Shown one piece after another: positions 5,665-30,730 of a DNA stretch of 30,730 bases (its first letter is position 1; every line of letters begins with the position of its first letter). The notes beneath the pieces were generated by a model, which saw only the letters and a list, made by a program, of their open reading frames with translations, was not told the origin of the DNA and did not search any database. A program made the position numbers and the translations under genes. This DNA is from a virus. The stretch is from positions 1 to 30,730 of IMG/VR virus record IMGVR_UViG_3300031741_000158. One strand, given 5' to 3'.

Positions 5665-5680
5665 GCAAGCAAGCCAGCTA

Positions 5681-5702: not shown

Positions 5703-5717
5703 AGAGTATTTAACTAA

Positions 5718-5754: not shown

Positions 5755-5780
5755 ACCTTACAAACAAAGGAACACTTCTC

Positions 5781-6218: not shown

Positions 6219-6237
6219 CAAAAAAGGAATTCGCCTA

Positions 6238-7191: not shown

Positions 7192-7451
7192 TACTTGATA
7201 CAAAAGAAAAAATACGGGAAGCTTTACGTAAATATAAATCTGACTTAGAAGAAAAAACCATCTGTACAGCGTGTAAATATTCAGGCCTTATTACAGTAGC
7301 CTTACCTTGTATAAACGTAAAAGAAAATCCTCTATTACATCCAGGTATTCATGATATAGAAATCAAAGCTATATGTACAAAAGTTGTTGGTATAAACATT
7401 ACAAACCATATTATTATTAACTGTCCATTTTTTAAGGATTTAATATCATGA
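7188..7451 (+). CDS. AT-rich Cys-containing 87-aa protein, unknown function
   Basis: The start overlaps the stop of the DUF4406 gene, and its stop overlaps the ligase start (both ATGA), so it is embedded in the operon. The product has CTACKY (about residues 26-31), a further Cys at about 41, ICTK at about 64 and NCPFF near the end, with DIEIKAICT in a strand-like stretch. The Cys pattern suggests a small metal-binding fold. The base composition is clearly more AT-rich and the codons (many ATA, AAA, TTA) differ from the flanking genes, suggesting recent acquisition. No family is recognised. Confidence 0.6.
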   Translation: MILDTKEKIREALRKYKSDLEEKTICTACKYSGLITVALPCINVKENPLLHPGIHDIEIKAICTKVVGINITNHIIINCPFFKDLIS

Positions 7452-8449
7452 CAACCAAACCCTTAACCCAATCCGAACTTGAAACCAAACTCTCGGCCGC
7501 AAACAAAGCATATGCTGTCGGAATCCCTTTTCTCACCGACACAGAATACGATATTCTCTGGCAGCAACTCTTTGCCTTTGATCAAACGCACCAGCTACTC
7601 TACCATACCGCCAACAATCCAAACATTGCTCATGATCTCTGCCAGCATCATCACCAGATATTCGGAACAAACAAAGCTTTCAACATCGACGATCTTAAAC
7701 CTTACCTTGCTCGATTTGGTAATTCCGAGCTTGTTCTTGAACCCAAGTACGACGGCTGTGCCGCTGTTCTATCAAAGTCCCCAGCTGGACTCAAGCTTGT
7801 CCTTGAAGGAGACGGCATCTCTGGGCATGATATAACCCACCATCTACCAATGATCTCCATGAATTTTGAACCACGCCATACACAAACCTGCGAAATCATT
7901 ATTCCATTCGTCAATTGGGCACCAAAATTCGGATCTAATCCGCGTAACGTAGTCGCTGGCTGGCTCAATCGAAAAGTCTTCGACCTGCCTGGCTTGGTCC
8001 ACATGATCCCGCATAACCATGGACCATTATTCATCCCATATGCTTTCGCCGGAGATTTTGAAGCCTTGGAAACTCATTTGCTCTCGGCCTATGCAACCTG
8101 GTCCAAAGTATTTCCTATCGACGGAATCATGGTCAAACCCCGATCCGAAAAACGGCGAGTCATCGCAGGCCATAACTCCAAGACTTATGCTTGGTCAATC
8201 GCTTGGAAACCTCCAATCCAGATAAAAGAAACTCGGGTTACTGATATCGAATGGAACGTTAGCCGCCAAGGCCGAATAATCCCAACTGTAATCTATGAAC
8301 CCATTACTCTCTGCCATACTGTAAACTCCCGCGCCACAGCCAATAATGCCAAATGGCTGGCTGACATGAAGATCAAGGTTGGCTCCATCATTAGTGTCGG
8401 CAAAGCAGGGGAGATTATTCCCAAGATTTTAAGTGTGACTAATGAATGA
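7448..8449 (+). CDS. ligA: NAD-dependent DNA ligase, N-terminal part (Ia, adenylation and OB domains)
   Basis: This 333-residue product matches the first half of bacterial LigA. Residues 22-37 carry the domain Ia NMN-binding helix pattern (Tyr22, Asp31, Tyr34, Asp35), though the usual His after Tyr22 is Ala. EPKYDG contains the adenylated Lys100. LEGDGISGHDITHH is the RGDG motif, NPRNVVAGWLNRK the later nucleotidyltransferase motif, and VSRQGRIIPTV through SVGKAGEIIPKI the OB fold. Translation stops 11 residues after that, exactly where the zinc finger should begin. The zinc finger, HhH and BRCT domains are encoded separately at 9538. Together they would seal nicks using NAD+. Alone, this part could self-adenylate but should join DNA poorly. 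Confidence 0.93.
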   Translation: MTTKPLTQSELETKLSAANKAYAVGIPFLTDTEYDILWQQLFAFDQTHQLLYHTANNPNIAHDLCQHHHQIFGTNKAFNIDDLKPYLARFGNSELVLEPKYDGCAAVLSKSPAGLKLVLEGDGISGHDITHHLPMISMNFEPRHTQTCEIIIPFVNWAPKFGSNPRNVVAGWLNRKVFDLPGLVHMIPHNHGPLFIPYAFAGDFEALETHLLSAYATWSKVFPIDGIMVKPRSEKRRVIAGHNSKTYAWSIAWKPPIQIKETRVTDIEWNVSRQGRIIPTVIYEPITLCHTVNSRATANNAKWLADMKIKVGSIISVGKAGEIIPKILSVTNE

Positions 8450-8716: not shown

Positions 8717-8884
8717 ATGATCAAACAAGTAGGTTTACGTATTGAAAGTAAGTTAGCTGACTGGATTAAGACAGAATGTAAAAAAGAAAATCGAAGTTTT
8801 AATAATTTCATATCGACACTTCTTCTTACAGAACAAAGCAAAAGATTTGGAAAAGAAAAGGAGGAGAAGAAAGATGAAAATTGA
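8717..8884 (+). CDS. small ribbon-helix-helix regulator of the homing operon
   Basis: ATGGGAGGAAAACAAC places GGAGG just before the ATG. The 55-residue product begins MIKQVGLRIESKLADWIKTE, then KKENRSFNNFISTLLL and a charged Lys/Glu tail. This strand-helix-turn-helix pattern (VGLRI; ESKLADWIKTEC; RSFNNFISTLL) is that of Arc/CopG-like dimeric repressors. The promoter directly upstream is lined with TGTTA repeats, so it very likely represses its own operon, including the HNH endonuclease whose start codon lies inside its last codons (overlap 8874-8884). It resembles the regulator at 2545 in layout but not closely in sequence. Confidence 0.75.
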   Translation: MIKQVGLRIESKLADWIKTECKKENRSFNNFISTLLLTEQSKRFGKEKEEKKDEN

Positions 8885-9563
8885 GTTTACAGAAGAAGAA
8901 ATGGAAAATTTACTTTACGCAGAAAAATTTTTTAGATCTTTAAAAGAGAAAAAAGTATTTAAAAGACAAGACAAACTATCTTTTACTTTAGTTCAGGAAT
9001 TATTATACTATGATCCTTTAGAAGGTCATTTTTATTGGACCTCAGCAGCCGGAAGGGATAAAGAAGGAATAAGGGCAGAAGCTCGGAATGAAGATAACTA
9101 TCGTTCTATAACCATTGATGGTAAATCATATGCAGCGCATCGAATTGCTTGGTTTTACATGGAAGGTTATTTCCCAGAGCACGAGATAGATCATATTAAC
9201 ATGCGTAAGTATGATAACAGATGGGAAAACTTACGGCATGTTACAAGAGCTTGTAATGCGCGTAATACAGGCCTAATGAAAACTAATACTTCAGGTGTTA
9301 AAGGAATTACTCGTTCTAAAAAACGCTGGGCTGTAACCATTGGACACCAAGGAATAGTTCTTAATCTCAAATCTTATGTTGATTTTTATACAGCAGTTAA
9401 AGTTCGTTGGGAAGCAGAGAAGATCCTCAAATATCCAGACTGTCAAACTACAAGTACTGCTTATCTTTGGTTAAAACAATATCATAAACAACAAGAACAA
9501 ATCAGAGCTCTTATAAAATCTTTTAAGGAGAACCCAAATGACAACCACAACCCAACCATTTGA
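8874..9563 (+). CDS. HNH homing endonuclease with AP2-type DNA-binding domain
   Basis: The ATG at 8874 is chosen over 8847 because AAAGGAGGAGAAGAA precedes it. In the 229-residue product, YDPLEGHFYWTSAAGRD and SYAAHRIAWFYMEG lead into the HNH core EIDHINMRKYDNRWENLRHVT..N..N (His-x-Asn, then Asn residues), followed by an AP2/ERF-like domain (TSGVKGITRSKKRWAVTI through YVDFYTAVKVRWEAEKIL). This is the standard layout of phage HNH homing enzymes, which cut allele copies lacking the insertion. It is translationally coupled to the regulator before it, and its last 26 bases contain the ribosome binding site's downstream start of the second ligase gene. It is AT-rich compared with the ligase parts. 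Confidence 0.9.
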   Translation: MKIEFTEEEMENLLYAEKFFRSLKEKKVFKRQDKLSFTLVQELLYYDPLEGHFYWTSAAGRDKEGIRAEARNEDNYRSITIDGKSYAAHRIAWFYMEGYFPEHEIDHINMRKYDNRWENLRHVTRACNARNTGLMKTNTSGVKGITRSKKRWAVTIGHQGIVLNLKSYVDFYTAVKVRWEAEKILKYPDCQTTSTAYLWLKQYHKQQEQIRALIKSFKENPNDNHNPTI

Positions 9564-10374
9564 TGCAACCATAGAGAGGCTGACATCAACCCTACCAGAA
9601 CCAGACAAACCCAAGCTGGCTCGACCTCTCAAACATTGTCCAGTCTGTGGAGCAGAAACCAAGTGGCAGGGCGTCGACCTCATATGTGACAGCACTTCAT
9701 GCATCGGCCAGTTAATCAAGCAAATTTCTTATTTCTACTCAAAGACCGGTTTTGATCTCAAGTCAATCGGCGAGAACATGATAGCAAAGTTAATCCTTAA
9801 TCCAGCTTGCTTCAAGATTCTTGTCGACCATCCGTGGGCTTTGCTTGATCCAGATTCTTTTTCTATCCTCGATGCACTAAAAGAAATCTGGGGAATCAAA
9901 CGAACAGAAACTTATCTTGATGAATTAACTAAAATCCAAGGGCGCAAAAACACAGCTCATTTTCTGGCTGCCATGGGATATCCCGGCCTAGCCTACAAGA
10001 CTGCGCTCAAAATTTTCTATTTCATCAAAGAAGGAATCGTCAACGCTAATATACCTCAGAAAGCCCAGACTAACTTTGTCCAGGCTTATGTTAAGTTCCA
10101 ATCAGTTGAACCATTACTAACGAATTTCACTTTCGCTGAGCTACCGGAAAGTCCAAAGGTTATCTACTGCATCACAGGATCGCTTGCCACCTCTCGGGTA
10201 GACCTTGTTGATTATCTAACCAAGTTCCGTTGGGAATGGTCGAACCAAGTTAGCAAATACGTAGACTATTTAATCATTGGATCAGAGCCTGGGAAAACTA
10301 AAATAACAAAAGCCGAGCAGTTAGGCACCCCAACCCTGACTGAGGCTGAATTCATGGAGAAGATAAAACAATGA
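9538..10374 (+). CDS. ligA: NAD-dependent DNA ligase, C-terminal part (zinc finger, HhH, BRCT)
   Basis: The ATG at 9538 has AAGGAGAACCCAA upstream, lying within the 3' end of the HNH gene. After about 30 residues with no counterpart in LigA the 278-residue protein has the ligase zinc finger (Cys34, Cys37, Cys50, Cys55), then the helix-hairpin-helix region (IKQISYF, FDLKSIGENMIAKL, through GIVNANI), and a BRCT domain (about 205-278; YCITGSLATSR, DYLIIGSEPGKTKITKAEQLG, TLTEAEF). These parts clamp DNA in bacterial LigA. With the 333-residue N-terminal part the total is 611 residues, against 671 in E. coli. The two chains probably assemble as a heterodimer. Confidence 0.92.
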   Translation: MTTTTQPFDATIERLTSTLPEPDKPKLARPLKHCPVCGAETKWQGVDLICDSTSCIGQLIKQISYFYSKTGFDLKSIGENMIAKLILNPACFKILVDHPWALLDPDSFSILDALKEIWGIKRTETYLDELTKIQGRKNTAHFLAAMGYPGLAYKTALKIFYFIKEGIVNANIPQKAQTNFVQAYVKFQSVEPLLTNFTFAELPESPKVIYCITGSLATSRVDLVDYLTKFRWEWSNQVSKYVDYLIIGSEPGKTKITKAEQLGTPTLTEAEFMEKIKQ

Positions 10375-11146: not shown

Positions 11147-11416
11147 ATGCCATTAATGGATCGAATAAAAGTTTTCGACTTCTTAAGCCTGCCGCCATCC
11201 GGGCAAGTTCACTTCATCAACAAGGTCCGAATAGCTCGGACAGCTGCTGTATCATTTGCCTTGATGCAAAAGAAAAAGAAGATTCCCAAGACCAAGATCG
11301 CCGGCAAGGCAAGAGTCAAATCACCTCGAGCACAAGCAAACAAGCAAGCTAAAGCAGAAGCGGCACTCAAGTTACTTACTCCAAGTCAAATTGCAGCCTT
11401 GGCTAAACTATTCTAA
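11147..11416 (+). CDS. small basic protein, possible DNA-binding
   Basis: AAAGGAAAAGAAATGAT precedes this ATG, which lies one base after the preceding stop. The N-terminal 40 residues (MPLMDRIKVFDFLSLPPSGQ at the start) look folded, while residues 42-75 are rich in Lys, Arg and Ala (QKKKKIPKTKIAGKARVKS), and the C-terminus LTPSQIAALAKLF is helical. The strong positive charge suggests nucleic-acid contact. It lies immediately before the ParB-methyltransferase gene. No family is recognised. Confidence 0.6.
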   Translation: MPLMDRIKVFDFLSLPPSGQVHFINKVRIARTAAVSFALMQKKKKIPKTKIAGKARVKSPRAQANKQAKAEAALKLLTPSQIAALAKLF

Positions 11417-11429
11417 AAGGAACCCAACC

Positions 11430-12896
11430 ATGACCGAAGTATCTCAGAAGAAGAAAAAACTATTCATTGTAGAAACCCTTGATATTAGTGACATCATAAT
11501 CGGAACTCGTGCTCGAAAGGAAATCGGAGACCTTGAAGATCTTGTCGGTTCAATCAAAGAATCCGGCCAACTCAATCCAGTTCTCGTCAATGAAAAACAT
11601 GAACTCATCGCAGGTGAACGTCGCATCAAGGCAATGAAAAAACTTGGACGGAAAAAAATAATCGCTCGAATCATGCCTGGCATCAGCTTCGACGATGCGT
11701 TGATAATCGAGCGAATGGAAAACCTGGCCCGTAAGGATTTTGAATGGCACGAAGAACTTAAAATCCGCCTTGACCTACATACCCATTGGAAAGAACAAGC
11801 TGAAGCAAAGAAAGAACCATGGGGGTTTAGAGAAACGGCTAAGCAACTTCGCTGTTCTCTTGGTGGACTCTCAACTGATCTCGTTCTTGCCGCAGCAATT
11901 ACAACCTTTCCTCAGCTTACTGAATACAATACAAAAGGCACAGCCAAGGATGCGTACAAAAAGCTCGGGCAACAAGCAGCAGCTATTCAAGCACAAGAAA
12001 ACTTGCCGCCAGAAGAAAAGGAAAGAATGGCCCAACTGATGTCCGGTGGTGCCATTGCCAAGCTCGTCTCAAAGAAAGCAGCTAAACCAAAGGCCGAACT
12101 CAAAGCCCAGCATGACGATGTTATCCCAGACATCGCTGGCTTAACTGGCGGTTCATTTTTGAACGACGATACGGGAGAAGATCCAATCGATGAGAATGAA
12201 CCACTCTCGACTAACATTGAACCAGTATACGCTACTCAATCCTACACTACATTCATCCCACAGATTCCAGATAACATTGTTGGGATGGTTGAACTTGATC
12301 CACCGTATGCCATTGACTTTGAGAACACCGCTGGCAAGGCAGCAAAAACTAAAGTCGATGTCACCGATTGGACACCCAAACAACTTTATGCTTTCTACAA
12401 CGAATACCTACCTATGCTTTATGCTAAGCTCTTACCTAACTCTTGGGTGCTTTGTTGGACTGGTAAAGAACACATTCAAGAAACACAAGCCATTGCAAAG
12501 GCTGCCAAATTTAAGACTCAGTCTCCTGGGGTATGGACTAAAACCGGTGGCGGTGGATGCAATACACCAAGCACAACCATGATTGCGAACTATGAAAACT
12601 TTTTGCTCTTCCGCAAAGGCAACGCGATCTTTAACCATAACTATCTACCAGCATCCATTGCCTGTGCATCAGCAATTTCAAGTTCTCGTATTCATGAGTG
12701 GGAAAAACCAGTCGAAGTTTATGACATAATCTTTAAACAAATTGCTCGAGCAGGAGCCATAATGCTAAGTCCTTTTGCCGGCTCAGGTAATGCCATGATA
12801 TCCGCGGCCAAACACGACATGACTCCAATGGGCTGCGATGATGATCAAACTTATGTTTATCGGTTCTATGAGAATTTTAAAAACTACTTTATTTAA
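11430..12896 (+). CDS. ParB-like domain fused to an adenine/cytosine-type DNA methyltransferase
   Basis: The ATG at 11430 follows AAAAGGAACCCAACC and is preferred to the upstream in-frame one at 11391. The 488-residue protein has an N-terminal ParB/sulfiredoxin-type domain (about 8-110) with SIKESGQLNPVLV and the box AGERRIKAMKKLG. A middle helical, Lys/Ala-rich part follows. The methyltransferase domain (about 280-488) has LDPPYAID (Asp290-Tyr293, motif IV) and later SPFAGSGNAMISAAK (448-462, motif I), the order of beta-class enzymes making N6-methyladenine or N4-methylcytosine. No restriction enzyme is nearby, so it is probably an orphan protecting phage DNA or marking it for other processes. 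Confidence 0.88.
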   Translation: MTEVSQKKKKLFIVETLDISDIIIGTRARKEIGDLEDLVGSIKESGQLNPVLVNEKHELIAGERRIKAMKKLGRKKIIARIMPGISFDDALIIERMENLARKDFEWHEELKIRLDLHTHWKEQAEAKKEPWGFRETAKQLRCSLGGLSTDLVLAAAITTFPQLTEYNTKGTAKDAYKKLGQQAAAIQAQENLPPEEKERMAQLMSGGAIAKLVSKKAAKPKAELKAQHDDVIPDIAGLTGGSFLNDDTGEDPIDENEPLSTNIEPVYATQSYTTFIPQIPDNIVGMVELDPPYAIDFENTAGKAAKTKVDVTDWTPKQLYAFYNEYLPMLYAKLLPNSWVLCWTGKEHIQETQAIAKAAKFKTQSPGVWTKTGGGGCNTPSTTMIANYENFLLFRKGNAIFNHNYLPASIACASAISSSRIHEWEKPVEVYDIIFKQIARAGAIMLSPFAGSGNAMISAAKHDMTPMGCDDDQTYVYRFYENFKNYFI

Positions 12897-15884: not shown

Positions 15885-17126
15885 ATGCCCCGACAACTAA
15901 CCGACTGGCTTGAGTCCTACATGCTCTTCACCCAAAACACTGAGCCACCGACACTCTATCATCTATGGTCTGGAATAACTGCCATCTCCTCTGCTCTGCG
16001 CAGAAAGTGCTTTTGCAATTGGGGATCTCGTGGCTACATCTATCCAAACCTTTATGTCTCGCTGGTTGGTCCTCCCGGCGGCCGTAAAGGAACAGCAATG
16101 AAGACCGCAAAAAAGATGGTTGAACTTCTCGAGATTCCTATGGGCTCTGACTCTCTTGGTTCAACGCAGGCACTTTATGCAGAAATCATGAACTCAGAAG
16201 ATCATTATATAAACTCTGGTGGTCTGGCTTGCAAATACAAGAGCCTGTCAATCTGGTCAGAAGAATTCCAAGTTTTTCTATCCGACCGAGACTTAACGCT
16301 GGTCGGAGCATTGACTGATCTTTTCGATTGCGCGGATAGCTGGAAATACACAACGCTCAAACGCAAGACCGAGGACATCTCTAACTGTTGGCTTACCATC
16401 ATTGGGGCAATAACTCCATCACTACTTCAATCAAAACTTTCACAAGACGCCGTTGGAGGTGGTCTCTTGAGTCGTATAATTTTCGTTGTCGGATACGGAC
16501 CGATCAGACGAATCGCACTCCCGTTCCTAACCGAAGAAGAAGAGAACCTTAAGAAAGCTCTCAACGAAGACCTACAGCAAATCGCTAACCTTAGTGGACC
16601 ATTCAAGCTTTGCAACTCCTTTCTCCGTTCTTATGCGCGCTGGTATGAAAATGGTTCATCTGCTGATGGAGTCTCAAATGACAAATTCCTAGGCTATAAT
16701 TCTCGTCGTGCCTTGCACTTGAACAAAATCTGTATGGTTGTCTCAGCCTCGGAAGACTCATCAATGGAACTTCATGACCGGCACTTTGAAAAGTCACTGG
16801 CCATTCTTGAAGCCACCGAAAAGGAAATGCCAAACGCATTTCATGGTCTCGGAATGGCAACACAATCAAATGTATATGCGAAGATAATGTCATATATTGA
16901 AACCCACGATCAGTTCTCCTGGAACGAAGTTCTTCGTCATGTTCATCTTGACATTAACAACACCCAGGAGTTACGTAACCTAATGGAAATGGCTGAACAA
17001 TCCGGACAAGTCAAAGCAGAACAATCAACAACAACTTTGATGTATGAGTCAATTCAAAAGACAAATAAATCCAAAGGGTCAAAGTATCTGACTGAGACTC
17101 TTTATCAACAAATGACTAACCTTTAA
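15885..17126 (+). CDS. DUF3987-like replicative helicase/primase-type ATPase
   Basis: This 413-residue protein begins with a helical region (LTDWLESYMLFTQNTEPP), then GPPGGRKGT (62-70), a Walker A variant with Gly after the Lys that is usual in DUF3987-like phage and plasmid proteins. A Walker B-like LSIWSEEF follows at about residues 120-128, and LTIIGAITPSLL and GGGLLSRIIFV continue the RecA-type core. Such proteins are thought to be replicative helicases or primase partners. Its place between the DNA polymerase and a DnaQ-like exonuclease supports this. The C-terminal 100 residues look like a winged-helix DNA-binding part. No separate DnaB-type helicase or primase is visible in the window. 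Confidence 0.75.
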   Translation: MPRQLTDWLESYMLFTQNTEPPTLYHLWSGITAISSALRRKCFCNWGSRGYIYPNLYVSLVGPPGGRKGTAMKTAKKMVELLEIPMGSDSLGSTQALYAEIMNSEDHYINSGGLACKYKSLSIWSEEFQVFLSDRDLTLVGALTDLFDCADSWKYTTLKRKTEDISNCWLTIIGAITPSLLQSKLSQDAVGGGLLSRIIFVVGYGPIRRIALPFLTEEEENLKKALNEDLQQIANLSGPFKLCNSFLRSYARWYENGSSADGVSNDKFLGYNSRRALHLNKICMVVSASEDSSMELHDRHFEKSLAILEATEKEMPNAFHGLGMATQSNVYAKIMSYIETHDQFSWNEVLRHVHLDINNTQELRNLMEMAEQSGQVKAEQSTTTLMYESIQKTNKSKGSKYLTETLYQQMTNL

Positions 17127-19819: not shown

Positions 19820-22045
19820 CTAACTCCAAATAACTTCTGTTCTAACTGTTATGGTATCGTTATCAGTAATTCCCCAGCTTGCAAGGTCAGCACTATCGCC
19901 TACGTTTCGAAGCACTACTGCGCCAGTAGCATCAACGATTGATTCCTTATTAACATGCCATTGGTAAAGCTGCTCAAGCAACGTACCAAAGTCAAGCGTC
20001 AATCCACTGGCTTCGTTCCAAACATCAGCAGCAGCCAAGGTCGAGGTAAGCCAGTTCCCTTGGTTAAGTTGAAGCTCATTTGTGTCAACCAAAATAGTAT
20101 CTACGATCCCATCTATGACATCAACCTTTCCATCAGTTATCCCATGCAAAGTAGCAGCAGTTCCAGCAGCATCAGGTACAGTAGTATTTGCTCCATCTGT
20201 TCCTCGCATAGCATCACCATCAAGGCCAGCAACATCAATAGCAATCGCATTAACCTTGGGTTGCATATCCGCTGTGTCTGTCAAAATAGATTGCATGTCA
20301 GTAGAATTAACCGTTGCGTTTGTAACCGTAGTTCCTGTGGATGTATCAGTAACAGCACTTGAAACGCCATAAAGATTAACGACTCCGGTGGTTGCTGATC
20401 CAGAGATAGCAATCGGTCCAGTCACGCCAACAACTTGAATGACTTGATTGGTTCCTCCAACGGTTAATGTGGCAGACCTGAACGTGCCTCTCAACTCCAT
20501 ATTACCACCAGTATCAGCGTCTATTGTTTGTTCTCCTCCGGCCAAGACTTCATGCGACAACGTAACATTCGCATCAACCCCAGAATAATTACTACCACCT
20601 GACCATGCCCGGTTATTTACTCCCGTCGTACCTGTTATATTCGTGTCAAAATCAAACTCTGGAGATCCAGCACCCGGAACAAGAGAATAACATCTTACAA
20701 AAGTATAATCTCCGTTGCTTGCCGCCGTGAACTTTCCAGATGCTTGCCCGATACCACAATTCGTTAATCTACCGGGTGGTATAGTCGCTTCTCCGATCTC
20801 ACAATGCTCAAAAACGCTATGGTCAGCAGCGCTACCTACCCCGGTTACTTCTGCCCCAACGATATGACTATCATTTATTGACTGACCACCTAGAGCTAAA
20901 TACCAATGCTCGCCGGTTATGGTCTGGTCATTAAAATCTGCACCCAATGTGATTGTGTTATCGTTCGCCACATGGAACCTATTTAAGTTCAGTGTCCCAT
21001 CTATAGTCAGAGCATCTGCCCAAGGGCATGGATTATCAGCCGTTCCATTAATGTATAACTCAGTGCCTGCCGTCCCTCCAGTATCAACCCAAATCATCCC
21101 ATTTGCATATCCAACGGATTGCGCAACCACAGCATAAGAACAAAGAACCTGATCAGTGGCAATAAGCGTACAATCAATAGATTTAAATGCAAGCCGAACC
21201 TTACCTAAGTCAGCCCCGGTCCCAACATGATTTACCGTGAAGTTAAATTCATTGTTCTTTATCTTTATCCCGTCTTCTGGTTTATCAATCGTTCCTATCT
21301 GCTCATATGTCGTAGTACCATAGTTATAACCGTACACACCAATAATATCATTCTTTGCTTGTGCATAGCCTGTCCAAGTAGCTGAGACCGGTATCCCATT
21401 TCCGCCGACACTGAATTCATAATAAACATCAATGTCAGAATTCCCATCGGATGTTATAATATGATAAGTCGTGTTTAGTTCCGAAGTATCTGTATATGTT
21501 CCGCTTGTTTCTGTGCCTTTAGAAGCAAGAATAGTAAAGCTTGCAGATACTGCACTGATCGCAGCGGATGAACTCGATAAATTATCCAGTTGCGCTTGGG
21601 TCGCCGGAAAGGTGTCTCCAGAAAGCCCAGTAGTATCATATTGAAGTTCAAGATTATCCGCTGCCGTTGTGTCACCAGATATAGCTGTAACATCTGCCGT
21701 TACTTGATTCGTTACAGTAGCAATAGTTCCTGCAGTAATATTCGTTGGAGTCGCAAATCCGGTTGCTTTATAATCTGCAAGCACAGCCGGATAAACATTG
21801 ACTGTCTGGCTAACTGCGTCAGCTAAAACCATGGTAAAAGCTACATGATCAAAGTTACTATCCGCTGCCGAAACTACATATGACCAGCATCCATTTCCTT
21901 CATGTACTTTTGCCCCTGCCCCAGTTCCTTGTGTACCACCATCACCCGTCACATAGACAACTGGAGTTCCAGTAGTAACAGGAGCACCACTTGCAATGGC
22001 TATCATTTGAAATGCTACTACTTGGCTTGCTGTGTTCTTAATCAT
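19820..22045 (-). CDS. tail-fibre-like structural protein
   Basis: The ATG at 22045 is preferred to 22078: it overlaps the previous stop as ATGA and has CGAGGATATCAAT upstream. The 741-residue product is rich in Thr, Ala, Gly, Asp and Val with few charged residues, typical of trimeric fibres. It opens with NTASQVVAFQMIAIASGAPVT, a fibre domain type seen in many phage tail proteins. A middle region has beta-helix-like repeats (HVANDNTITLGADFNDQTIT). The C-terminus has repeated short D-x-x-x-VD units, then LLEQLYQWHVNKESI and WGITDNDTITVRTEV, an end seen in upper fibre/baseplate proteins. It probably mediates contact with the host surface. Confidence 0.8.
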   Translation of the reverse strand: MIKNTASQVVAFQMIAIASGAPVTTGTPVVYVTGDGGTQGTGAGAKVHEGNGCWSYVVSAADSNFDHVAFTMVLADAVSQTVNVYPAVLADYKATGFATPTNITAGTIATVTNQVTADVTAISGDTTAADNLELQYDTTGLSGDTFPATQAQLDNLSSSSAAISAVSASFTILASKGTETSGTYTDTSELNTTYHIITSDGNSDIDVYYEFSVGGNGIPVSATWTGYAQAKNDIIGVYGYNYGTTTYEQIGTIDKPEDGIKIKNNEFNFTVNHVGTGADLGKVRLAFKSIDCTLIATDQVLCSYAVVAQSVGYANGMIWVDTGGTAGTELYINGTADNPCPWADALTIDGTLNLNRFHVANDNTITLGADFNDQTITGEHWYLALGGQSINDSHIVGAEVTGVGSAADHSVFEHCEIGEATIPPGRLTNCGIGQASGKFTAASNGDYTFVRCYSLVPGAGSPEFDFDTNITGTTGVNNRAWSGGSNYSGVDANVTLSHEVLAGGEQTIDADTGGNMELRGTFRSATLTVGGTNQVIQVVGVTGPIAISGSATTGVVNLYGVSSAVTDTSTGTTVTNATVNSTDMQSILTDTADMQPKVNAIAIDVAGLDGDAMRGTDGANTTVPDAAGTAATLHGITDGKVDVIDGIVDTILVDTNELQLNQGNWLTSTLAAADVWNEASGLTLDFGTLLEQLYQWHVNKESIVDATGAVVLRNVGDSADLASWGITDNDTITVRTEVIWS

Positions 22046-23391
22046 ATTGATATCCTCGTTGCTATGTTTGATATCCAAAAAGGTTTAAATCCTGCTGTAT
22101 CTGCTGTTATCGTAAAAGTAGGGCTCGCCACTGTAGCTATCGTTGTTGTTGTCAATGACGCTGCTGGAATCGTAGCTGTTATCGTATCATTTGCTGTTAT
22201 TGAATAACCAGAAGACGCTGGCAGAGTAACAGTAGCCACTTTATCGCTGCCGGTCAATGCGACATTAGTGTTGTCAAGGTTATCTCTTACTTCACTGTTC
22301 CATGAAGCACTGCCGCTAATTCCTGCGGCTATTGCATCTTCACTTGTTGTACCAGTTACAAACGTATCCGTTCCAGCAATTGTAAGAACTATCGTCTTGC
22401 CACCAGTCACTATGTCACTTTCTGTTACTCCTGTGGATATTGTGCCTGTAACGTTTATAGGCAATATACCGCCCACAACAACTTCCCATGCGCCTATCGT
22501 TGGTGCGCTCGTTCCAGTACCAGTTCCACGGTCCTGCCCAACGACATCAAGGTCATTAGTGTTGACTTGATCCCTCACCCCATTTTCATCAAGATCGCCA
22601 GCCTTAGTCCTTAAATCAAGATTCGCCGCGTTTGTTATATTTTCAAACTGACTTGATGCTGTCTTAATATCCTGGTTTGACGTTCCTGGCATACTGGTGT
22701 CATCAGAAGCATTGTTTGATGATGTGCCATATGTGCCTGTTTCTGCTGATGTTGTCCAACCAAAAACAGCAGTGTTTTTTATGATGGTTGCCGGGCTGTA
22801 TAACTGATCAATCCCAACTACGCCAGCGCCTAAACAGAAAAAGGTACAGTTTAAGATTTGTGGACTATTTTGATATGTCCTTACTGCGGGCTTTGTACTT
22901 TCCTGGATAACTACTGTATTTATTAACTTGCTACCATCCCTAAGATCTATAACACCAGTGGCTTCCGAACCACCATGCAGGATACAATCTTTTGCTACAC
23001 AGTTTGCACCGGATAGCGTTAAAGTAATAGCAGAAGTAGTTGTGCTATTACTTGCGCTAACCTGCATACCCGATAGCTCGAAATAGTTAGAATTTATGCT
23101 TAAAGCTGCATCATACCTGGACGTTTTATTGATCCCAGCACCCTTTGTGGCATCATATCGTAGCGGATTTGTAAGTACATCTACGTGGTCAGCAAATCCC
23201 TCCCCGGTTGCGGGTCTTAATATGGCATGATATGTAGATGTTCCATCTGTTCCTGCGCAATCGAGTTGAGATGTTGTTGTAAGCTCTCCAGTTATTTCCC
23301 CAATCCAATCAGATGCGGAAACATCTACATCAACCCACCATTCTTCTACGCCAGCATAAGTCTTTCCGGACCCTATTGAGTTAGTTGTCAT
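22042..23391 (-). CDS. beta-helix tailspike-like protein with Ig-like C-terminal domain
   Basis: The start overlaps the previous stop, with GGTGGTAGG directly before the ATG. In this 449-residue protein residues 1 to about 300 look like a right-handed parallel beta-helix (NSNYFELSGMQVSASNS, NCVAKDCILHGG, KLINTVVIQES, NCTFFCLGAG) and close with the DxDExGxxD...IGAWE pattern typical of such proteins. Residues about 310-440 resemble an Ig/cadherin-like domain found in phage structural proteins (TGTISTGVTESDIVTGGKTI). It is most likely part of the receptor-binding or depolymerase apparatus; no catalytic residues can be assigned from sequence alone. Confidence 0.8.
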   Translation of the reverse strand: MTTNSIGSGKTYAGVEEWWVDVDVSASDWIGEITGELTTTSQLDCAGTDGTSTYHAILRPATGEGFADHVDVLTNPLRYDATKGAGINKTSRYDAALSINSNYFELSGMQVSASNSTTTSAITLTLSGANCVAKDCILHGGSEATGVIDLRDGSKLINTVVIQESTKPAVRTYQNSPQILNCTFFCLGAGVVGIDQLYSPATIIKNTAVFGWTTSAETGTYGTSSNNASDDTSMPGTSNQDIKTASSQFENITNAANLDLRTKAGDLDENGVRDQVNTNDLDVVGQDRGTGTGTSAPTIGAWEVVVGGILPINVTGTISTGVTESDIVTGGKTIVLTIAGTDTFVTGTTSEDAIAAGISGSASWNSEVRDNLDNTNVALTGSDKVATVTLPASSGYSITANDTITATIPAASLTTTTIATVASPTFTITADTAGFKPFWISNIATRISI

Positions 23392-23747
23392 CCTACCACC
23401 ACCGTCTTTTCTTGAACAATAACAGTTTTAGATTTGATGGAAATCTTTGTCAGTAATTCGGCTTTTGTGATAACTGGTTCTGTCTTCTCTGTCGATAACT
23501 CGGTTATGGTTGAAATGTCGACTGTCTTATTCCTCTTCTTTACAATACCCCCAAAAAGATCGGTATCAGAAGATAGCATCTCTTGTGCCTCTTCAAGTTT
23601 CATATCTGATTTTATGACTTTAAATCTTGGGTTGGAATAAAATTCTTTGCTTATTACATAGGTTTCAGGGTATACCCCAATTATATCACCAGGATCAAAT
23701 ACAGATCCTTTTACATATCCTGCCATAATAGTAAGATAACAACTCAT
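23388..23747 (-). CDS. 119-aa protein in the tail region, unknown function
   Basis: The ATG at 23747 overlaps the sulfotransferase stop (ATGA) with GTGAGGGAAAT upstream; an in-frame ATG at 23762 is less likely. The product begins MSCYLTIMAGYVKGSVFDPGD. It then has the segment IIGVYPETYVISKEFYSNPRF and a C-terminal Lys/Thr/Val-rich stretch (VITKAELLTKISIK, then VIVQEKTVVVG). A short beta-strand N-terminal domain with 'GDIIGVYP...F' resembles phage proteins near tail fibres and baseplates. The function is unknown; position implies a virion or assembly role. Confidence 0.65.
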   Translation of the reverse strand: MSCYLTIMAGYVKGSVFDPGDIIGVYPETYVISKEFYSNPRFKVIKSDMKLEEAQEMLSSDTDLFGGIVKKRNKTVDISTITELSTEKTEPVITKAELLTKISIKSKTVIVQEKTVVVG

Positions 23748-24286
23748 ATTTCCCTCACCCATACTTTCATTGGATCATAACCAAGGGCCATTTCTAACTC
23801 CAACCCACCAGATTCAACCCACTTCGTTGCAATTACAGGGGTCCAGAAATCACGCCAAATTGAAGGATCTGGTGTGAATGTTGGAGTCTGCCCCCATAAG
23901 TCTATAAAATGGTTTTCGACAGGTTCCATGCCGATAAACTCAGCTATTACATTTATCTGATTCGGGTCGGTCAGCAACTCTTCAAACTTAATATTAAGTG
24001 TATTAGGAGCACTTAACCACCCAACATATACAGACATATTATCAATAATATATTCGATTTGCCCTATGTAATTTTCTTCTGAAAAAGGTATCTTATTAAA
24101 CTTTAGCCAGCTTGCCACAACATTCCGTGGAGATCGTGTGATATGTAAATGTTTATCAGTATCAGCGTATGAATGTGGGTAAGGATCATGTCTATGGGAT
24201 TCTGGGTTAAACTCATACCCAAACATAAGGACAGCTTTCCAAAGCAAGTGTGTTCCTGTTTTATATGCTCCGTTGCAAATTATCAT
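23744..24286 (-). CDS. PAPS-type sulfotransferase
   Basis: The 180-residue product has both PAPS-binding elements: GAYKTGTHLL (Lys9-Thr-Gly-Thr, the 5'-phosphosulfate loop) and ITRSPRNVVASW, in which Arg51 and Ser59 have the eight-residue spacing of the 3'-phosphate site. IKFEELLTDP is the conserved strand-helix that follows, and WRDFWTP is near the C-terminus. It should move sulfate from PAPS to a hydroxyl or amine of a glycan or small molecule. At 180 residues it is near the minimum for the family. It is coupled to the small gene downstream and lies between two beta-helix genes. A TTG-started 17-codon frame (24336-24283) with AGGACAGGGA overlaps its start and could be a leader peptide. Confidence 0.85.
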   Translation of the reverse strand: MIICNGAYKTGTHLLWKAVLMFGYEFNPESHRHDPYPHSYADTDKHLHITRSPRNVVASWLKFNKIPFSEENYIGQIEYIIDNMSVYVGWLSAPNTLNIKFEELLTDPNQINVIAEFIGMEPVENHFIDLWGQTPTFTPDPSIWRDFWTPVIATKWVESGGLELEMALGYDPMKVWVREI

Positions 24287-24357: not shown

Positions 24358-25995
24358 TTACCCGAGTATTCCGTTGCCGCCTATGTTTAGGATTCTGCTG
24401 GGTCGTTTTGGTGCGCCTGCTCCCTGGTCTGCTCCGATGTTTGGGAGTCTGTGGACATATTTACCCCACAAATCTGCTTGACCTTCTTCGTTTACGCCTG
24501 TAATCCATGTGCCTATGCCGATTAATGGGTTATCTGACCTGTTTACAAGTTTTCCAGAATCGGAGACAGGACAGTAATCAAGTGTTTCTGATATTGTTCC
24601 TGGTGCAGATCCAAGGTAAACATCCCATGATCCTGAGTTTTCGACTACACAAACGGAATTAACATCATACCCAGCTCCAACCCAATCGGCAAAAGTGGCA
24701 TACGTTACCGCCCCAACCTGCCCAAAAAGGCATGTACCAGAAATAACGAAAGCATTATAATCAGATATAGCGGTACCATTTTTAATATACATAATGGCCC
24801 TGTCCACCTTGGTCATACCATCCAACAGAACAATAAGATTATTTTTAATAATTGTGTCATTAGCTGCATAGCTGGTGTCTCCTACCATAACAGGATGATA
24901 TTTCATTGGTATAGTTGAGACTACTGTGTTGTGATACACTGGGACACTATGCTGCCCCTTAACGTGTAATCCGTAAGCACAATTATGAATCAAATTATAC
25001 TGTATCCCATATCCAGACCAAGTATCACTCGCAGCGTCGCCATTCCCTTTTACAACAATCCCGAAACCTGCGCCGTAAACCGTGTTTCTATACACACTAG
25101 CATTTATGTTATTTCCAACAAGTAAAGCGTGTAAATACATAGCTTCATCATGGGCTGCTGTATCAAAATAAGCAGGACCATATACTGTGTTATCAGATAG
25201 ACTGGGAGTGGTATACCCATTTTTTAATAGCGGATCTGTTGCAGGTGCGTCTTTTCCGATTGCCAAGACAAGCCCAGCGTACTGTTTCACATGAGCCACA
25301 TTACTATCAATAGTACAAGTCCCCTTTGCGCTTGTAGCTTGCAGCAAGATCATTGCGAGATTGGCTGCGTCAGTGCTGCGATTGTTGTAAAAAACATTAC
25401 CAGTAAAAGAGGGATCTGCTTGTTCTTCTGCACGCCAAAAACCGCCCGTCCCCTCGTTACTATTAATTGTAAAGATAGAATCAGACACATCGAGTGCCCA
25501 TGTGCTTGCAGATCCAGGCCAGAACCAATTGTCAATGGATACATCTGCTGCGGCTGAGACAGTCACCACCGCCCCGCTCATATCAAAAGAGTATATCCGA
25601 GCCGAGCCACTGGAATACAGTATACTTCCGGTTATAACCCCATTTATATTGATTATCGTATCTATCATTGATATGGTTGTTGAACGTGTGAAACGCATAA
25701 ATGAGGATGAAAAAGCACCAGCATTAATGGTGACATCACCAATTGTTAAGATACCGGCAGCATCAGCAGTTATATTAACAAAGTTAGCTCCAGAAGTGGT
25801 TATTACACCAGGACTGCTCCCTGATCCTATTACCAGATTTTTGGTGATGCCAGTCCCGACAAACGGGTTTATACCTACAAAATCCAATTCATCATTTGCT
25901 GCCAGTGCGTTGTGCGCGACAACTGCATCTGTGTAATATCCATCATACCCTGACGGGGTTGCTGTTAAATCTGGACCAACTATATATTTTGCCAT
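24358..25995 (-). CDS. beta-helix (pectate-lyase-like) tailspike protein
   Basis: TTTGAGGTGATATAG precedes the ATG. The 545-residue product starts MAKYIVGPDLTATPSGYDGY, and its middle has the repeated Asn/Val/Ile/Gly turns of a right-handed beta-helix (NVFYNNRST, DNTVYGPAY, YRNTVYGAGFGIVV, YNLIHNCAYGLHVKG, YHNTVVS, KNNLIVLLDG). The end ...LPNIGADQG is the usual closing motif of these helices. Such spikes bind and often cut host polysaccharide. The sulfotransferase is the next gene downstream. No depolymerase active site can be assigned from the sequence alone. Confidence 0.82.
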   Translation of the reverse strand: MAKYIVGPDLTATPSGYDGYYTDAVVAHNALAANDELDFVGINPFVGTGITKNLVIGSGSSPGVITTSGANFVNITADAAGILTIGDVTINAGAFSSSFMRFTRSTTISMIDTIININGVITGSILYSSGSARIYSFDMSGAVVTVSAAADVSIDNWFWPGSASTWALDVSDSIFTINSNEGTGGFWRAEEQADPSFTGNVFYNNRSTDAANLAMILLQATSAKGTCTIDSNVAHVKQYAGLVLAIGKDAPATDPLLKNGYTTPSLSDNTVYGPAYFDTAAHDEAMYLHALLVGNNINASVYRNTVYGAGFGIVVKGNGDAASDTWSGYGIQYNLIHNCAYGLHVKGQHSVPVYHNTVVSTIPMKYHPVMVGDTSYAANDTIIKNNLIVLLDGMTKVDRAIMYIKNGTAISDYNAFVISGTCLFGQVGAVTYATFADWVGAGYDVNSVCVVENSGSWDVYLGSAPGTISETLDYCPVSDSGKLVNRSDNPLIGIGTWITGVNEEGQADLWGKYVHRLPNIGADQGAGAPKRPSRILNIGGNGILG

Positions 25996-26076: not shown

Positions 26077-26361
26077 TCATCTTCCACGATGTCTTCTTAG
26101 CGGTTGAACTTCAACCACAGCAGCCGAACTAATCGATTGCACATAAAAGAACCCTGCACCAGGACCAAGAATCTCATTCAACGAAATAGCTGCATCAGCT
26201 TTAATTGTCCAATAAGTAGCACCAGCATCATCAGAAGAAATCTTCAAAGCTACAGAAGTTCTTGCCTGGACCGCATAATCTTCTACATCTTGACCAGACC
26301 CAAGCACCACCATTGTCCAGGTTGTTGTTGCTGCGTTATGATTGATAGTATCTAAAATCAT
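26077..26361 (-). CDS. 94-aa phage structural-type protein
   Basis: The start overlaps the stop of the large polyvalent gene (ATGA). The product opens MILDTINHNAATTTWTMVVL, then VALKISSDDAGATYWTIKADAAISL and FFYVQSISSAAVVEVQPL. The all-beta look with 'L-I-S-D-D-A-x-x-Y-W-T-I-K' and a late 'F-Y-x-Q-S-x-x...x-V-E-V' pattern is a common small phage structural or head-tail type protein. The basic end RRHRGR is odd for it. The exact function is unknown. Confidence 0.65.
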   Translation of the reverse strand: MILDTINHNAATTTWTMVVLGSGQDVEDYAVQARTSVALKISSDDAGATYWTIKADAAISLNEILGPGAGFFYVQSISSAAVVEVQPLRRHRGR

Positions 26362-29300
26362 TTTTTAATCCTTTTCTCAAAGCGTTCATTAAATTTATTT
26401 TGCAATTTCTTGATTCGATCATTAAGTCTCTTTTTACTATTCTCTGATCGAGCACGTTTGATTATTTTTCTCAACGCATTTATTTGTCTCTCAGTGCTTT
26501 TTAAAGTTTCCGTAAGTCTAAACCTTGGGTCTTTCATGAACTCACGACGCCGTTCTGGGTATGTCTTGATCTTCTTCAGCAGCATCTTGACTTCTTCGGC
26601 ATTGGCATAAAAGTCTTGTCGACCTTTAGTCTTATCAAGCCCACCTATAAACTTTCGAGCCAGCGGAACTTTACGTATATCTACTGGATCTTCGCTAAGT
26701 GCCTGAGGCAAACCAACAACACCAGAGACAAATCTCCCCAGACCACCAGTAAAAGTATCCTCAACCAAGTCAATGATTTCAGGAGAAATATCGACTAAAC
26801 CTTTCTCAACTTTATCTCCACCAGAGATGTTGTTAAGAAACTCAGCCATTGCCTTTGAACTTGGTCGAACAGATTTCCAATAACGTTGAGATTCCGGAGT
26901 TGGTACATCTTCAAATTTATTCTTCTCTGGCATGATTGGAGCGCCAAAAAAGTTCTTGTTCTCGGCTATCTGAACAACAGGATCAGTGATCGTTGGTGAA
27001 ATCATCTGGGCGAATGTCGCCGATTGGATTGGATTAAAAGCATTGAGGCCAGCGTTAAGTAAGCGACTTGCTCCTTCCATTGGGTCATACTTAAACTGGC
27101 TTGGATCACCACCAGCTAAGATCGCATCTCCGATTTCTGTTCCTATATTCCAGAAGAAATTCAATCCCCAGCCAAGAGGAATTTTCAAGACTTTGCCCCC
27201 AGAGTTTGGAATTATAAAGATCATATTCCGTTCTTTCTCATGATCTTTAACTTGTGCATATTTATTCTTTCCTTCGTCATCATCGCCGCCAAGCAAACCA
27301 TTAGCAACAGTTACGCCGATAGCAGAAATCATCATACCACCAACTATCTTTCTGGCCTTCGAGCTTTTGACAAGACCACTAATCAACCTTGCCGACCCCT
27401 GAACACCGGCACTGGAAAACAGATAAAGACTATTATAAAGTTCTCCGTACAAGCCTTTTTGCTCAAAGTTAACTGTTAGTTCTTTTGCCAACAACGCTGC
27501 CTTAGCCTTGCTTAAACCAACATTCCGAGCATTTTTATACGCGGCCAACCTCGTTGCATTCTCTGCTATTGAGTTATAATCCTCAATTAGCTTCCCAACT
27601 TTCTTGATTGTTTTCCAAGTCATTGGTAAAGCCTTCCCTTGAGCTGACCAAACTTCGCTGTTGATACTCTTCGCGAGCTTTTCTACTTCCTGACCTCGAT
27701 CAGCCCAGGCCATCTTTCCCCCAGCTGCTTCGAACTCCTTAGCAGTCTTACCCCAATCCGATGTTCCAGTTCCTCGAATTGCATCCCGCAAGCCCATAGC
27801 AGCCGCTGGAATATCTTTCATAACCTTCATAGTCATGTCTTTAAGCTCGGTGCTGCTCAAGTTAACTGCTGCAATTTGAACATCACGCGGAAGATTCGTC
27901 AAGATAAACTCTGGATTCAAACCAGTATGAATCGTCGCGAAGTAACGGTTGAGCTTGGAAAGTCCTCGAACAATAGCTCCAGTATTTGCATTGTTGCCTT
28001 TGAGATGATTAACAATTCTCATAGCATGTTCATTTTCTGAATTCATTGTAATGATATAATACTTTCCGTCTATCTTCAATGGGACTTGGTTGTCCTTGAT
28101 TTTGAAGTCTTCTTTCTTGTAGATGTTGCCATTGGAGTCATAGGCATTAACCATGGCTTTTTCAGAAATACTCCAAAACTTCTTATTCGGAAAGTCTTTG
28201 ATAAGCTGCAGTAAGGTCCGTCCTGACTCTGCTTTACCAGCTCTCTCGATTGCCCGCTCATGCTGGACAAGAACATTCTCAAGGACATTGACTGCGCGCT
28301 TGGTTGAGCCGCCTCTGATTTTGTAATCCTTTCCAAGGTTAACGATCCCCTGACCTGTGCCAAAAAGTCCTGATTGACTCTTGTGTCCCTCACGGTATAG
28401 TGGAACATAGTGTTTGAACGTTGACTTGAATGCATCATATTCTGCTTGGGTTATTCGACCAGAGTCCAGGGAAACATCCAGTGTTGCCGCAGTCACCTTG
28501 TCGATCATCTTGAGAATGCTTTGCATGTCCGCATCGTCAGCCCAATCAGCATTGATTTTTTTTGCTTCGATATCTGTAATCCCAGAGAAACGATCTTTCT
28601 TATCAAGCCAGTCTTGCTTGATTGCCTTGGTATCCTTCGAGACCGTATATTGAAGCTCTTTGCGAAGCAGATCCAAGTAAGCCCTCTGGGTTACTGCGTT
28701 CGGAAGATCAAGCTCTTTCATGACTTCATCAATGGCATCAATCTTTTCTTTGAGGTAATCCTTTTCATTTGTTTCTGCAAGATCGAGCAAGAAGCGCCTA
28801 GCATTTGTAAGTTGCAACCTCTTGTTCGCTTCGATTGCATGTCGACCATAAGCAGCTTCTCCGACATCAGTGACATCGAAATCATTCTTTGCCATGAGGT
28901 CAACCATCGGCTGGACAAGTGTTTCTTTATCAGCCTTGATTTGCGCGCCAGTTTTGTTTCGCCTCAAGCGTTCAGACAGCAGGTAGTCAGCTTTCTCCTG
29001 GATTTCTTTTCCAGTATCACGTTCGATTGCCTTCTGGACTTTACTCACAGGAGCTAAGACATCAACAAAAGCATGGTATGCTGTTTCTCGTCGCGTTGAT
29101 TCATCGTCGACTTCAAATGGCTGAGAGTTGATTTTGCCTTCCGAAGTCTGAAACATCGGCATGCCGGTCTTGACAGCAGCGACTTTCATCTGTGGAGTTA
29201 TGGTCATTGACATTACAGTTTTAGGCACAACACCTTCGCCACGGGCACTTGCAGGTAAAGCAGCTTCCATAGATGGATTAATCATTCTGAGGTCTGTAGT

Positions 29301-30730
29301 CTCAATCCGGCCGCCAAACTTCTTAAAGAACTTCTTTGCCATGCTCGGTAGCATCTTGTCATAAAATGCTTTCATTCCTTCGCCACCGACCTTTAGATCA
29401 GTATTAGAAAGTCTTTTAGCCCAAATACCACTTCGGTTTGTTTCTTCTTGTTCAATAAGTTTCTTTGCTATATCTTTGCCGATGTAATCTTCGAGTTTAT
29501 CTTCTTCTACGTTTTCATTAATTAATGTTAGATCACCATCACCATAAGCAATTAATCGACCATTAGCATATTGAATATTATCAACTTGCTTACTCAAATC
29601 ATACCGAGCCGCTTGTTGCTCTCCAGTAGTCCAAGCGATTTTATCAAACCCATTCTCTGCTGCATACCGTACCATTCGTTTAAGCGTCAATAAGGGCCAG
29701 GACTTTTTGAATGGTGCGTCTGGGACTCCAGAAAGAAGAGTTTGTCTTAACTCTCCGCGCTCCGCATAATCCGAACTAAAACTTTCTTCTTTTCTAAGCT
29801 GTATAAGAGTTTGTGTTAATGATTGTTCTGAGTTAGCATCTCTATAAATAGCTATTTGATTGTCTATTTTATCAGTTAATTCATTAAGTCGTTTTACTTT
29901 TTTTATCTCTTCTGGTGTTCTTTGATATCCTTCTTTCCGCCCAGCCTGGTGCCAATCACTCTGCACCTCTTCCAAAAACAATACCTTGTTTCCTTCGGCA
30001 TCGGGGCGAGAATTAAATCGAACATGAGCAACTATGTTTGGTTCGGAATAATGACCGGATTTGTAAACATCTTTGGGATCATCTAATTCAGATTTCATCA
30101 TCTTAACTTGTTCTCTATTAAGATCGATAAAATCTTTCCCAAATATTCTTTGTGCATCTGCATTCATGGAAGTCTGCTTCTGTGGAATCGTCAACAAGAG
30201 TTCTTTGTAATCCTCGCCGCCAGGTTCTTGCCATTTGGCATGTACTGGCATTAAACCTTTTTTACGATGTTCAACAGATTGTTTAATAAGTTCTTTTTCT
30301 TGTTCAATTAATTTCGTATGTTTTAATCTTAAATCTAAAACAGTTTTTGGTAATTTTGAATATGGAATATCTTCCTTTGTACTTTTCTTATAAAAAATTA
30401 TCTTACCAAAAGATAAACCAGTAGTATAATCATCATTATATTGAACTAATTTTTCATCTATTTTATTATTTAAATCAATTATTTCTTCTCGGAGTAAGGC
30501 TAATTTTTCTCTGTTAATAGAATCTTCAAGAGTAACTTCTTCCAATTGAACATTATTCGCCTCAATGAAATCTACCAAATCATCTTTCGTTACTTTCCCA
30601 GTCTGTTCATCCAACCATTCATTAACCTCAACCCAGGAAAGTTCCTCAGCCTTAACAGGAAGCTTACTAATCATCGCTTTCCATTGACTTGCAGGTGCAA
30701 TCTTCTGTTTGATTCCTTCAACACCTTTGA
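26358..30730 (-). CDS. large polyvalent (LPD38-like) virion/ejection protein, 5' end outside window
   Basis: The frame stays open from the ATG at 30674 to the right edge (in-frame KGVEGIKQKIAPASQWKAM precedes it), so the protein begins beyond the window and at least 1,456 residues are present. SWVEVNEWLDEQ through NNVQLEEVTL, then ARLGGED-type YKELLLTIP, EPNIVAHVRFNSR, LFLEEVQSDWHQAGRK (about 29,940-30,000) and ENGFDKIAWTTGEQQAARYDLSKQV form a polyvalent-protein domain. The C-terminal third (about 27,990-26,900; FATIHTGLNPEFILTNLPRD, then PMTWKTIKKVGKLIEDYN) is LPD38-like, with two hydrophobic segments (ARKIVGGMMISAIGV, LGWGLNFFWNIGT). Such giant proteins are thought to be ejected or internal virion proteins. 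No catalytic site is assigned. Confidence 0.8.
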   Translation of the reverse strand, partial: KGVEGIKQKIAPASQWKAMISKLPVKAEELSWVEVNEWLDEQTGKVTKDDLVDFIEANNVQLEEVTLEDSINREKLALLREEIIDLNNKIDEKLVQYNDDYTTGLSFGKIIFYKKSTKEDIPYSKLPKTVLDLRLKHTKLIEQEKELIKQSVEHRKKGLMPVHAKWQEPGGEDYKELLLTIPQKQTSMNADAQRIFGKDFIDLNREQVKMMKSELDDPKDVYKSGHYSEPNIVAHVRFNSRPDAEGNKVLFLEEVQSDWHQAGRKEGYQRTPEEIKKVKRLNELTDKIDNQIAIYRDANSEQSLTQTLIQLRKEESFSSDYAERGELRQTLLSGVPDAPFKKSWPLLTLKRMVRYAAENGFDKIAWTTGEQQAARYDLSKQVDNIQYANGRLIAYGDGDLTLINENVEEDKLEDYIGKDIAKKLIEQEETNRSGIWAKRLSNTDLKVGGEGMKAFYDKMLPSMAKKFFKKFGGRIETTDLRMINPSMEAALPASARGEGVVPKTVMSMTITPQMKVAAVKTGMPMFQTSEGKINSQPFEVDDESTRRETAYHAFVDVLAPVSKVQKAIERDTGKEIQEKADYLLSERLRRNKTGAQIKADKETLVQPMVDLMAKNDFDVTDVGEAAYGRHAIEANKRLQLTNARRFLLDLAETNEKDYLKEKIDAIDEVMKELDLPNAVTQRAYLDLLRKELQYTVSKDTKAIKQDWLDKKDRFSGITDIEAKKINADWADDADMQSILKMIDKVTAATLDVSLDSGRITQAEYDAFKSTFKHYVPLYREGHKSQSGLFGTGQGIVNLGKDYKIRGGSTKRAVNVLENVLVQHERAIERAGKAESGRTLLQLIKDFPNKKFWSISEKAMVNAYDSNGNIYKKEDFKIKDNQVPLKIDGKYYIITMNSENEHAMRIVNHLKGNNANTGAIVRGLSKLNRYFATIHTGLNPEFILTNLPRDVQIAAVNLSSTELKDMTMKVMKDIPAAAMGLRDAIRGTGTSDWGKTAKEFEAAGGKMAWADRGQEVEKLAKSINSEVWSAQGKALPMTWKTIKKVGKLIEDYNSIAENATRLAAYKNARNVGLSKAKAALLAKELTVNFEQKGLYGELYNSLYLFSSAGVQGSARLISGLVKSSKARKIVGGMMISAIGVTVANGLLGGDDDEGKNKYAQVKDHEKERNMIFIIPNSGGKVLKIPLGWGLNFFWNIGTEIGDAILAGGDPSQFKYDPMEGASRLLNAGLNAFNPIQSATFAQMISPTITDPVVQIAENKNFFGAPIMPEKNKFEDVPTPESQRYWKSVRPSSKAMAEFLNNISGGDKVEKGLVDISPEIIDLVEDTFTGGLGRFVSGVVGLPQALSEDPVDIRKVPLARKFIGGLDKTKGRQDFYANAEEVKMLLKKIKTYPERRREFMKDPRFRLTETLKSTERQINALRKIIKRARSENSKKRLNDRIKKLQNKFNERFEKRIKK

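Follow-up and report, generated by a model that had tools for sequence, protein, structure and literature searches.

A putative sulfotransferase gene lying among presumed receptor-binding genes of a phage raises two questions, namely whether the protein is such an enzyme and, if so, what it modifies. The gene is found in an IMG/VR virus record of 30,730 bases, here called the window. Replication genes occupy the plus strand of the window up to about 18 kb, and virion-type genes lie on the minus strand beyond. A preliminary description had reported an open reading frame of 180 residues at 23744-24286 without giving its strand. The frame is real and lies on the minus strand, running from 24286 to 23744; the plus-strand frame across the same positions is riddled with stop codons. 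Both PAPS-binding motifs named in that description are indeed present, KTGT at residues 9-12 and Arg51 with Ser59, and their spacing agrees with that of sulfotransferases. The gene, its motifs and the gene upstream of it are as follows.

23744..24286, minus strand: compact PAPS-type sulfotransferase gene (P0001, 180 aa), ATG start; evidence from open reading frame, fold and profile
24251..24262, minus strand: 5'-phosphosulfate-binding motif K9-T-G-T12, followed by invariant His13; evidence from sequence and a 16-member alignment
24188..24190, minus strand: codon of His33, at the position of the SULT catalytic histidine (H-x-P); evidence from profile alignment to SULT4A1/SULT7A1 (SHLPYRF / THLNYEM)
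24110..24136, minus strand: 3'-phosphate-binding motif from Arg51 to Ser59 (R-S-P-R-N-V-V-A-S); evidence from sequence, alignment and SULT profile alignment
24358..25995, minus strand: 545-aa upstream gene, Ser/Thr/Gly-rich, possible beta-helix, outside the conserved cassette described below

On its own, P0001 gave no match in PHROGs or NCBIfam, in a tblastn search of phages or in an 8-mer scan of viral contigs, and it scored 18.1 bits against Pfam PF00685 (Sulfotransfer_1), below the gathering threshold of 22. Scanning viral contigs with degenerate motif patterns yielded 18 further distinct members, and thus a family of 19 (the window, L022, L023, L029, L045, L047, L051, L054, L055, L064, L068, L072, L077, L086, L087, L088, L105, L106 and L107) with lengths of about 166-197 aa. 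One of these relatives, L022, clears the PF00685 threshold at 28.4 bits (cut-off 22), and Sulfotransfer_1 matches 13 of 16 family members, at best with 8e-10. An HMM built from 15 homologues without P0001 gave P0001 189 bits. Since 2000 residue shuffles reached at most 9.8 bits, this family match is not a chance event, and a motif arising by coincidence was ruled out.

The identity claimed earlier was borne out by the predicted fold, in which a sulfotransferase core is present. An AlphaFold model of P0001, built from a ten-member alignment, had a pLDDT of 90.2 and a pTM of 0.86. In a Foldseek search of the PDB with this model, the best 50 matches were sulfotransferases or PAP-binding relatives, with SULT1C3 first (E=9e-7). 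Sulfotransferases also occupied the top rows of the VIA-align list, where TPST2 (Z 15.2, rmsd 3.0, 170 residues) and SULT1C3 (Z 14.9, rmsd 2.9, 171 residues) were tied. TPST1/2 act on proteins, but they are Golgi membrane enzymes with 16% identity to P0001, and the likeness is structural and comes from the model.

In SULTs, the histidine of the H-x-P motif is the catalytic base and the P-loop lysine is the catalytic lysine. The 16-member profile reached SULT4A1 at E=2.8e-9, with His33 aligned to the H-x-P histidine. K9, G11, H13, H33, R51, P53, S59, E102, T134, T136, W148, W156, G169 and Y170 are invariant in 16 of 16 members, and they hold among members as divergent as about 28% identity. Whether the motifs persist in homologues, a point raised by the preliminary description, has a divided answer: positions 10 and 12 of KTGT vary (K-x-G-T/N/V-H, for example KHGVH or KxGNH), but the lysine and histidine at catalytic positions and the 3'-phosphate Arg/Ser pair do not. 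The enzyme reading survives the KTGT variation because Lys9, His33, Arg51 and Ser59 are invariant.

With the cytosolic SULTs (SULT1/2/4/7; PF00685), the phage family shares the core fold, the lysine loop for the 5'-phosphosulfate, the H-x-P histidine and the R-x-P...S motif for the 3'-phosphate. However, SULTs are about 285-300 aa long and carry K-S/T-G-T-T and RKG, whereas the family has KxG(T/N/V)H, no RKG and a place in a phage operon. The C-terminal RKGxxGxWK motif of cytosolic SULTs was not found in the members, where its place is taken by T-x-T-[FW] (T-F-T or T-W-T) and then S-x-[WYF]. P0001 is some 100 residues shorter than a SULT, and much of the missing part is substrate-pocket sequence. 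Because the RKG motif is absent and about 100 residues are missing, P0001 is best placed in the superfamily at large, as a compact form, and not among the cytosolic SULTs. Profiles and model together make it almost certain that P0001 is a PAPS sulfotransferase, and we conclude that it is a trimmed-down PAPS-dependent enzyme predicted to be catalytically competent.

Independent support for PAPS use comes from APS kinase genes attached to some members, since APS kinase makes PAPS. Such a gene overlaps the sulfotransferase start in L077, L086 and L088 (PF01583 E-values of 7e-20, 1e-20 and 2e-15, respectively), the best PDB match of the upstream kinase being adenylyl-sulfate kinase (E=2.9e-13), and L105 has an APS kinase in the same arrangement, identified by its PDB match. 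In these four relatives the enzyme is a shortened form of APS kinase (CysC, PF01583), about 105-111 aa long and covering two thirds or less of the PF01583 profile. No APS kinase was found in the window contig. We infer from this gene content that the family uses PAPS. As a side observation, a CTP_transf_like nucleotidyltransferase gene that could belong to a PAPS-making pathway lies upstream of the APS kinase in L077 and L086, and in L077 a HAD-family gene is inserted between the sulfotransferase and the small gene that follows it.

L077 5023-5349 and 6273-6764; L086 2053-2394: HAD-family (L077) and CTP_transf_like (L077, L086) genes

What, then, does the enzyme act on? The genes downstream of it bear on this question.

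23744..23747, minus strand: ATGA start/stop overlap from the sulfotransferase to the small gene, preceded by GAGGG
23388..23747, minus strand: small partner gene, 119 aa if started at the ATG overlapping the sulfotransferase stop, 124 aa if started at the ATG further upstream (23762)
23388..23391, minus strand: ATGA start/stop overlap from the small gene to the beta-helix-like gene
22042..23391, minus strand: beta-helix-like protein, 449 aa, third gene of the cassette, with an N-terminal domain homologous across the scanned loci
19820..22078, minus strand: repetitive virion-type protein, 752 aa, downstream; relatives occur in L003 and L029

A homologue of the window's small gene follows the sulfotransferase in 18 of the 19 members, the two genes mostly overlapping or lying within a few bases of each other, and the beta-helix-like protein comes after the small gene wherever the contig is long enough. 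This conserved cassette supports the proposed association of the sulfotransferase with virion-type genes. The proposed coupling to its neighbours stands in the downstream direction, where the ATGA overlaps lie, but not upstream; translational coupling is one-sided because a 71-nt gap separates the sulfotransferase from the 545-aa gene. The label 'tailspike', given earlier to both flanking genes on composition and position only, found no support in Pfam, PHROGs, NCBIfam or PDB profiles. The 545-aa protein had no family match (Pfam and PHROGs among the searches), the 449-aa beta-helix-like protein matched no Pfam or PDB profile, and the similarity of the neighbouring genes to Pfam Beta_helix was weak (E=0.16).

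The sole member outside the cassette is L054 (5077-5631), where the gene directly precedes a terminase large subunit gene. In L087 the small and beta-helix-like genes form one open frame (4734-6278), and this fusion has a twin-arginine-like stretch (SRRGILKGILGVSALMLM) between its two parts; in other cassettes (also L074, L091 and L093) neighbours start with signal-peptide-like sequences, which is odd for virion proteins.

The phages that carry the cassette are diverse, with terminases from different PHROGs and a tape-measure gene in one. Judged by the large 1438-aa protein encoded elsewhere in the window, the window phage is closest to L002 (60% identity) and then to L003 (50%). In L003 two other genes, of 102 and 335 aa, stand in place of the sulfotransferase and small gene, while in L002 the whole block is missing. 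The cassette is a mobile unit in this region, because other genes or none take its place in L003 and L002.

The small partner family is about 100-155 aa long, with the consensus GDVIxVxPDGWxWG..E..NPxWRIIK. Its model had a pLDDT of 89 and matched no solved fold in the PDB. On the tree of the small protein, 3 changes of the sulfotransferase label were enough, where shuffles gave 12.1 and none of 500 went as low; on that of the beta-helix domain 9 were needed, against 13.1 (4 of 500 shuffles as low), although trees of such short proteins are poorly resolved and label clustering can stem from shared descent and linkage instead of function. By these trees, the enzyme stays with its small protein through descent, and the beta-helix part is exchanged more freely. 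The small protein of L029 falls among cupin-linked copies, beside L066 (support 91/90), a placement suggesting that the enzyme has been exchanged at least once. A column test of the small protein gave no hydroxyl residue (Ser/Thr/Tyr) specific to sulfotransferase-linked copies beyond multiple testing. Taken together, we consider it probable that the sulfotransferase and the small protein are functional partners.

The cupin-linked copies came from a scan keyed on the beta-helix-like protein only and thus blind to the upstream gene, which returned 38 stretches, 34 of them distinct. The slot upstream of the small gene holds a sulfotransferase in 11 of these 34 cassettes and a cupin-like protein in 16 (L082 being a weak match), with both in none; the remaining seven have neither enzyme, or the slot is not visible in the stretch. 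No APS kinase was present in the 16 distinct cupin records.

L065 4080-4412, L092 1148-1585, L080 3241-3597 and 13 other loci: cupin-like slot occupants

The cupin-like protein is about 105-160 aa long, with H25, H27, H31 and H75 invariant in 14 members and the consensus GHxHxFDHTTIVFxGxVxV...HFLVKAxVxHEI. Its matches to PDB profiles were mostly cupins, though weak (best 0.0033), with weak similarity to FdtA and oxalate-decarboxylase cupins, and in PHROGs it resembled only a 'short tail fiber protein' family, and weakly. The motif and the weak profile matches point to a cupin-like, putatively metal-type occupant. Because a cupin can replace the sulfotransferase there, the slot looks like a place for interchangeable modifying enzymes.

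The analysis thus establishes the fold, the PAPS-binding and catalytic residues, the operon of sulfotransferase, small partner and beta-helix-like gene, and the APS kinase in four relatives. Our main reading, to which we give an even chance, is that a PAPS sulfotransferase and its small partner act on the product of their own module. The sulfotransferase would be made late, alongside virion genes, by coupled translation; the donor would be host PAPS or, in the relatives, PAPS from the phage's own kinase; and the enzyme may bind, or act through, the small partner. Sulfate would be placed on the small protein or its receptor-binding assembly before virions are finished, and this would tune binding to the host surface. 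That the acceptor is a product of the module itself we hold at slightly under even chance. These phages seem to carry out a sulfation step themselves, with the virus particle as a possible target. Two roles were proposed earlier, both of them predictions; since the gene keeps company with a single small partner gene, action on the virion proteins of the phage itself is the better fit, ahead of sulfation of host polysaccharide. The fullest form of the proposal is tentative and somewhat unlikely as a whole: a dedicated late sulfation module, in some phages with its APS kinase, would act on a small virion protein or the receptor-binding assembly, and its slot could be swapped for a cupin making a different modification. 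If such a module exists, it would to our knowledge be the first phage system that alters receptor-binding proteins by sulfate.

The main rival is late sulfation of host capsule, LPS or exopolysaccharide, by which progeny would avoid debris or superinfection would be resisted, much as phage O-acetyl- and glucosyltransferases modify the host surface. The gene adjoins presumed surface-binding proteins, and a glycan acceptor is compatible with the fold because its characterised relatives include enzymes for small-molecule and protein acceptors; the alternative cupin, given its weak similarity to FdtA and oxalate-decarboxylase cupins, could also modify sugars. Seroconversion enzymes, however, tend to be encoded by moron or lysogeny genes that have separate promoters and no tie to one virion gene, whereas translation of the sulfotransferase is coupled to that of one small partner, with which it is co-inherited. 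Moreover, the 180 residues of the enzyme show no evident membrane segment, and access to an exported or lipid-linked glycan would therefore be difficult. We therefore regard host-surface modification as unlikely.

A structural or binding role is less probable still. The protein would retain binding of PAPS or of a sulfated ligand and serve, with no turnover, as a virion adaptor or chaperone for the small and beta-helix pair, which would accord with the P-loop variants (KHGVH, KxGNH), with the small size of the protein and with a slot shared with a cupin weakly similar to a 'short tail fiber protein' PHROG. Yet no aligned member, even at about 28% identity, departs from Lys9, His33, Arg51, Ser59 or Glu102, and the APS kinase brought by four members is sensible only if PAPS is consumed or at least needed. 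Least probable is an auxiliary metabolic role, such as sulfation of a small molecule for detoxification or signalling by a gene merely located in a virion operon: marine phage sulfotransferases are generally filed under metabolic genes (PMC10580990), but the gene is not scattered, since 18 of 19 members lie ahead of the same small gene in phages whose terminases and tails are not related to one another.

Phage sulfotransferases have been known for years, with unclear roles (PMC10580990). Genes of cyanophages, roseophage SIO1 (gp5.1), P-SSM7 and marine methylotroph phages likewise encode sulfotransferase folds (PMC10580990), but their fold similarity to the P0001 family is weak and they are not reported in this cassette. 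No description of a cassette of sulfotransferase, small gene and beta-helix-like gene was found in the open-access literature searched. Among 50,697 phage records there was no sequence match to the family apart from one chance match, a tblastn hit in Pseudomonas phage Psa21 that was rejected as antisense to an annotated CDS. The preliminary description had called such enzymes rare in this gene context, which is true of sequenced phages but not of uncultured ones, where the sulfotransferase occupies roughly a third of the distinct cassettes. A strict C-terminal pattern found 14 stretches in 84,980 bacterial and archaeal genomes, none of them a family member by HMM. The family profile, which does detect known members, had no hit at an E-value of 1e-15 in two bacterial classes (385 and 369 genomes), a result that is weak evidence of absence because the classes were picked without knowledge of the host. 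Four things were absent from the phage records and literature searched and are new here: this compact family, its constant position in the operon, the cupin that can replace it and the APS kinase that accompanies some members.

The fixed operon position, the co-inherited partner and, in some phages, a PAPS-making kinase make the function of a phage sulfotransferase testable. If the acceptor is the virion, sulfation would join the ways in which phages alter receptor binding. A very small sulfotransferase with an intact catalytic set may also serve enzyme work.

Several further features were observed. Phage contigs also carry a second sulfotransferase class, full-length at about 270-310 aa, with NGFPK[SA]GTH and a C-terminal TFRKG-like motif; its L057 member passes Pfam Sulfotransfer_1 at 3e-14.

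L052 7698-8537, L056 1976-2899, L057 4544-5362, L060 3332-4171 and L061 6131-7063: second sulfotransferase class

In the window itself, an NAD-dependent DNA ligase is encoded in two open reading frames with an HNH endonuclease gene between them (7448-8449, 8847-9563 and 9538-10374). Both ligase frames match phrog_3869 (positions up to 382 and from 388, respectively), an arrangement that reflects either a homing endonuclease insertion or a split ligase. One frame at 11391-12896 has an N-terminus matching ParB-like partition nuclease families and a C-terminus matching DNA methyltransferase families. ARAGORN called a tRNA-Lys (ctt) at 16497-16586 on the minus strand, possibly falsely, within a plus-strand primase/helicase-like frame (15885-17126). 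Lastly, the 1438-aa protein (26358-30674) shows, in its second half, about 30% identity to a large protein of Stx-converting phages, Vibrio phages and Methanosarcina virus MetMV.
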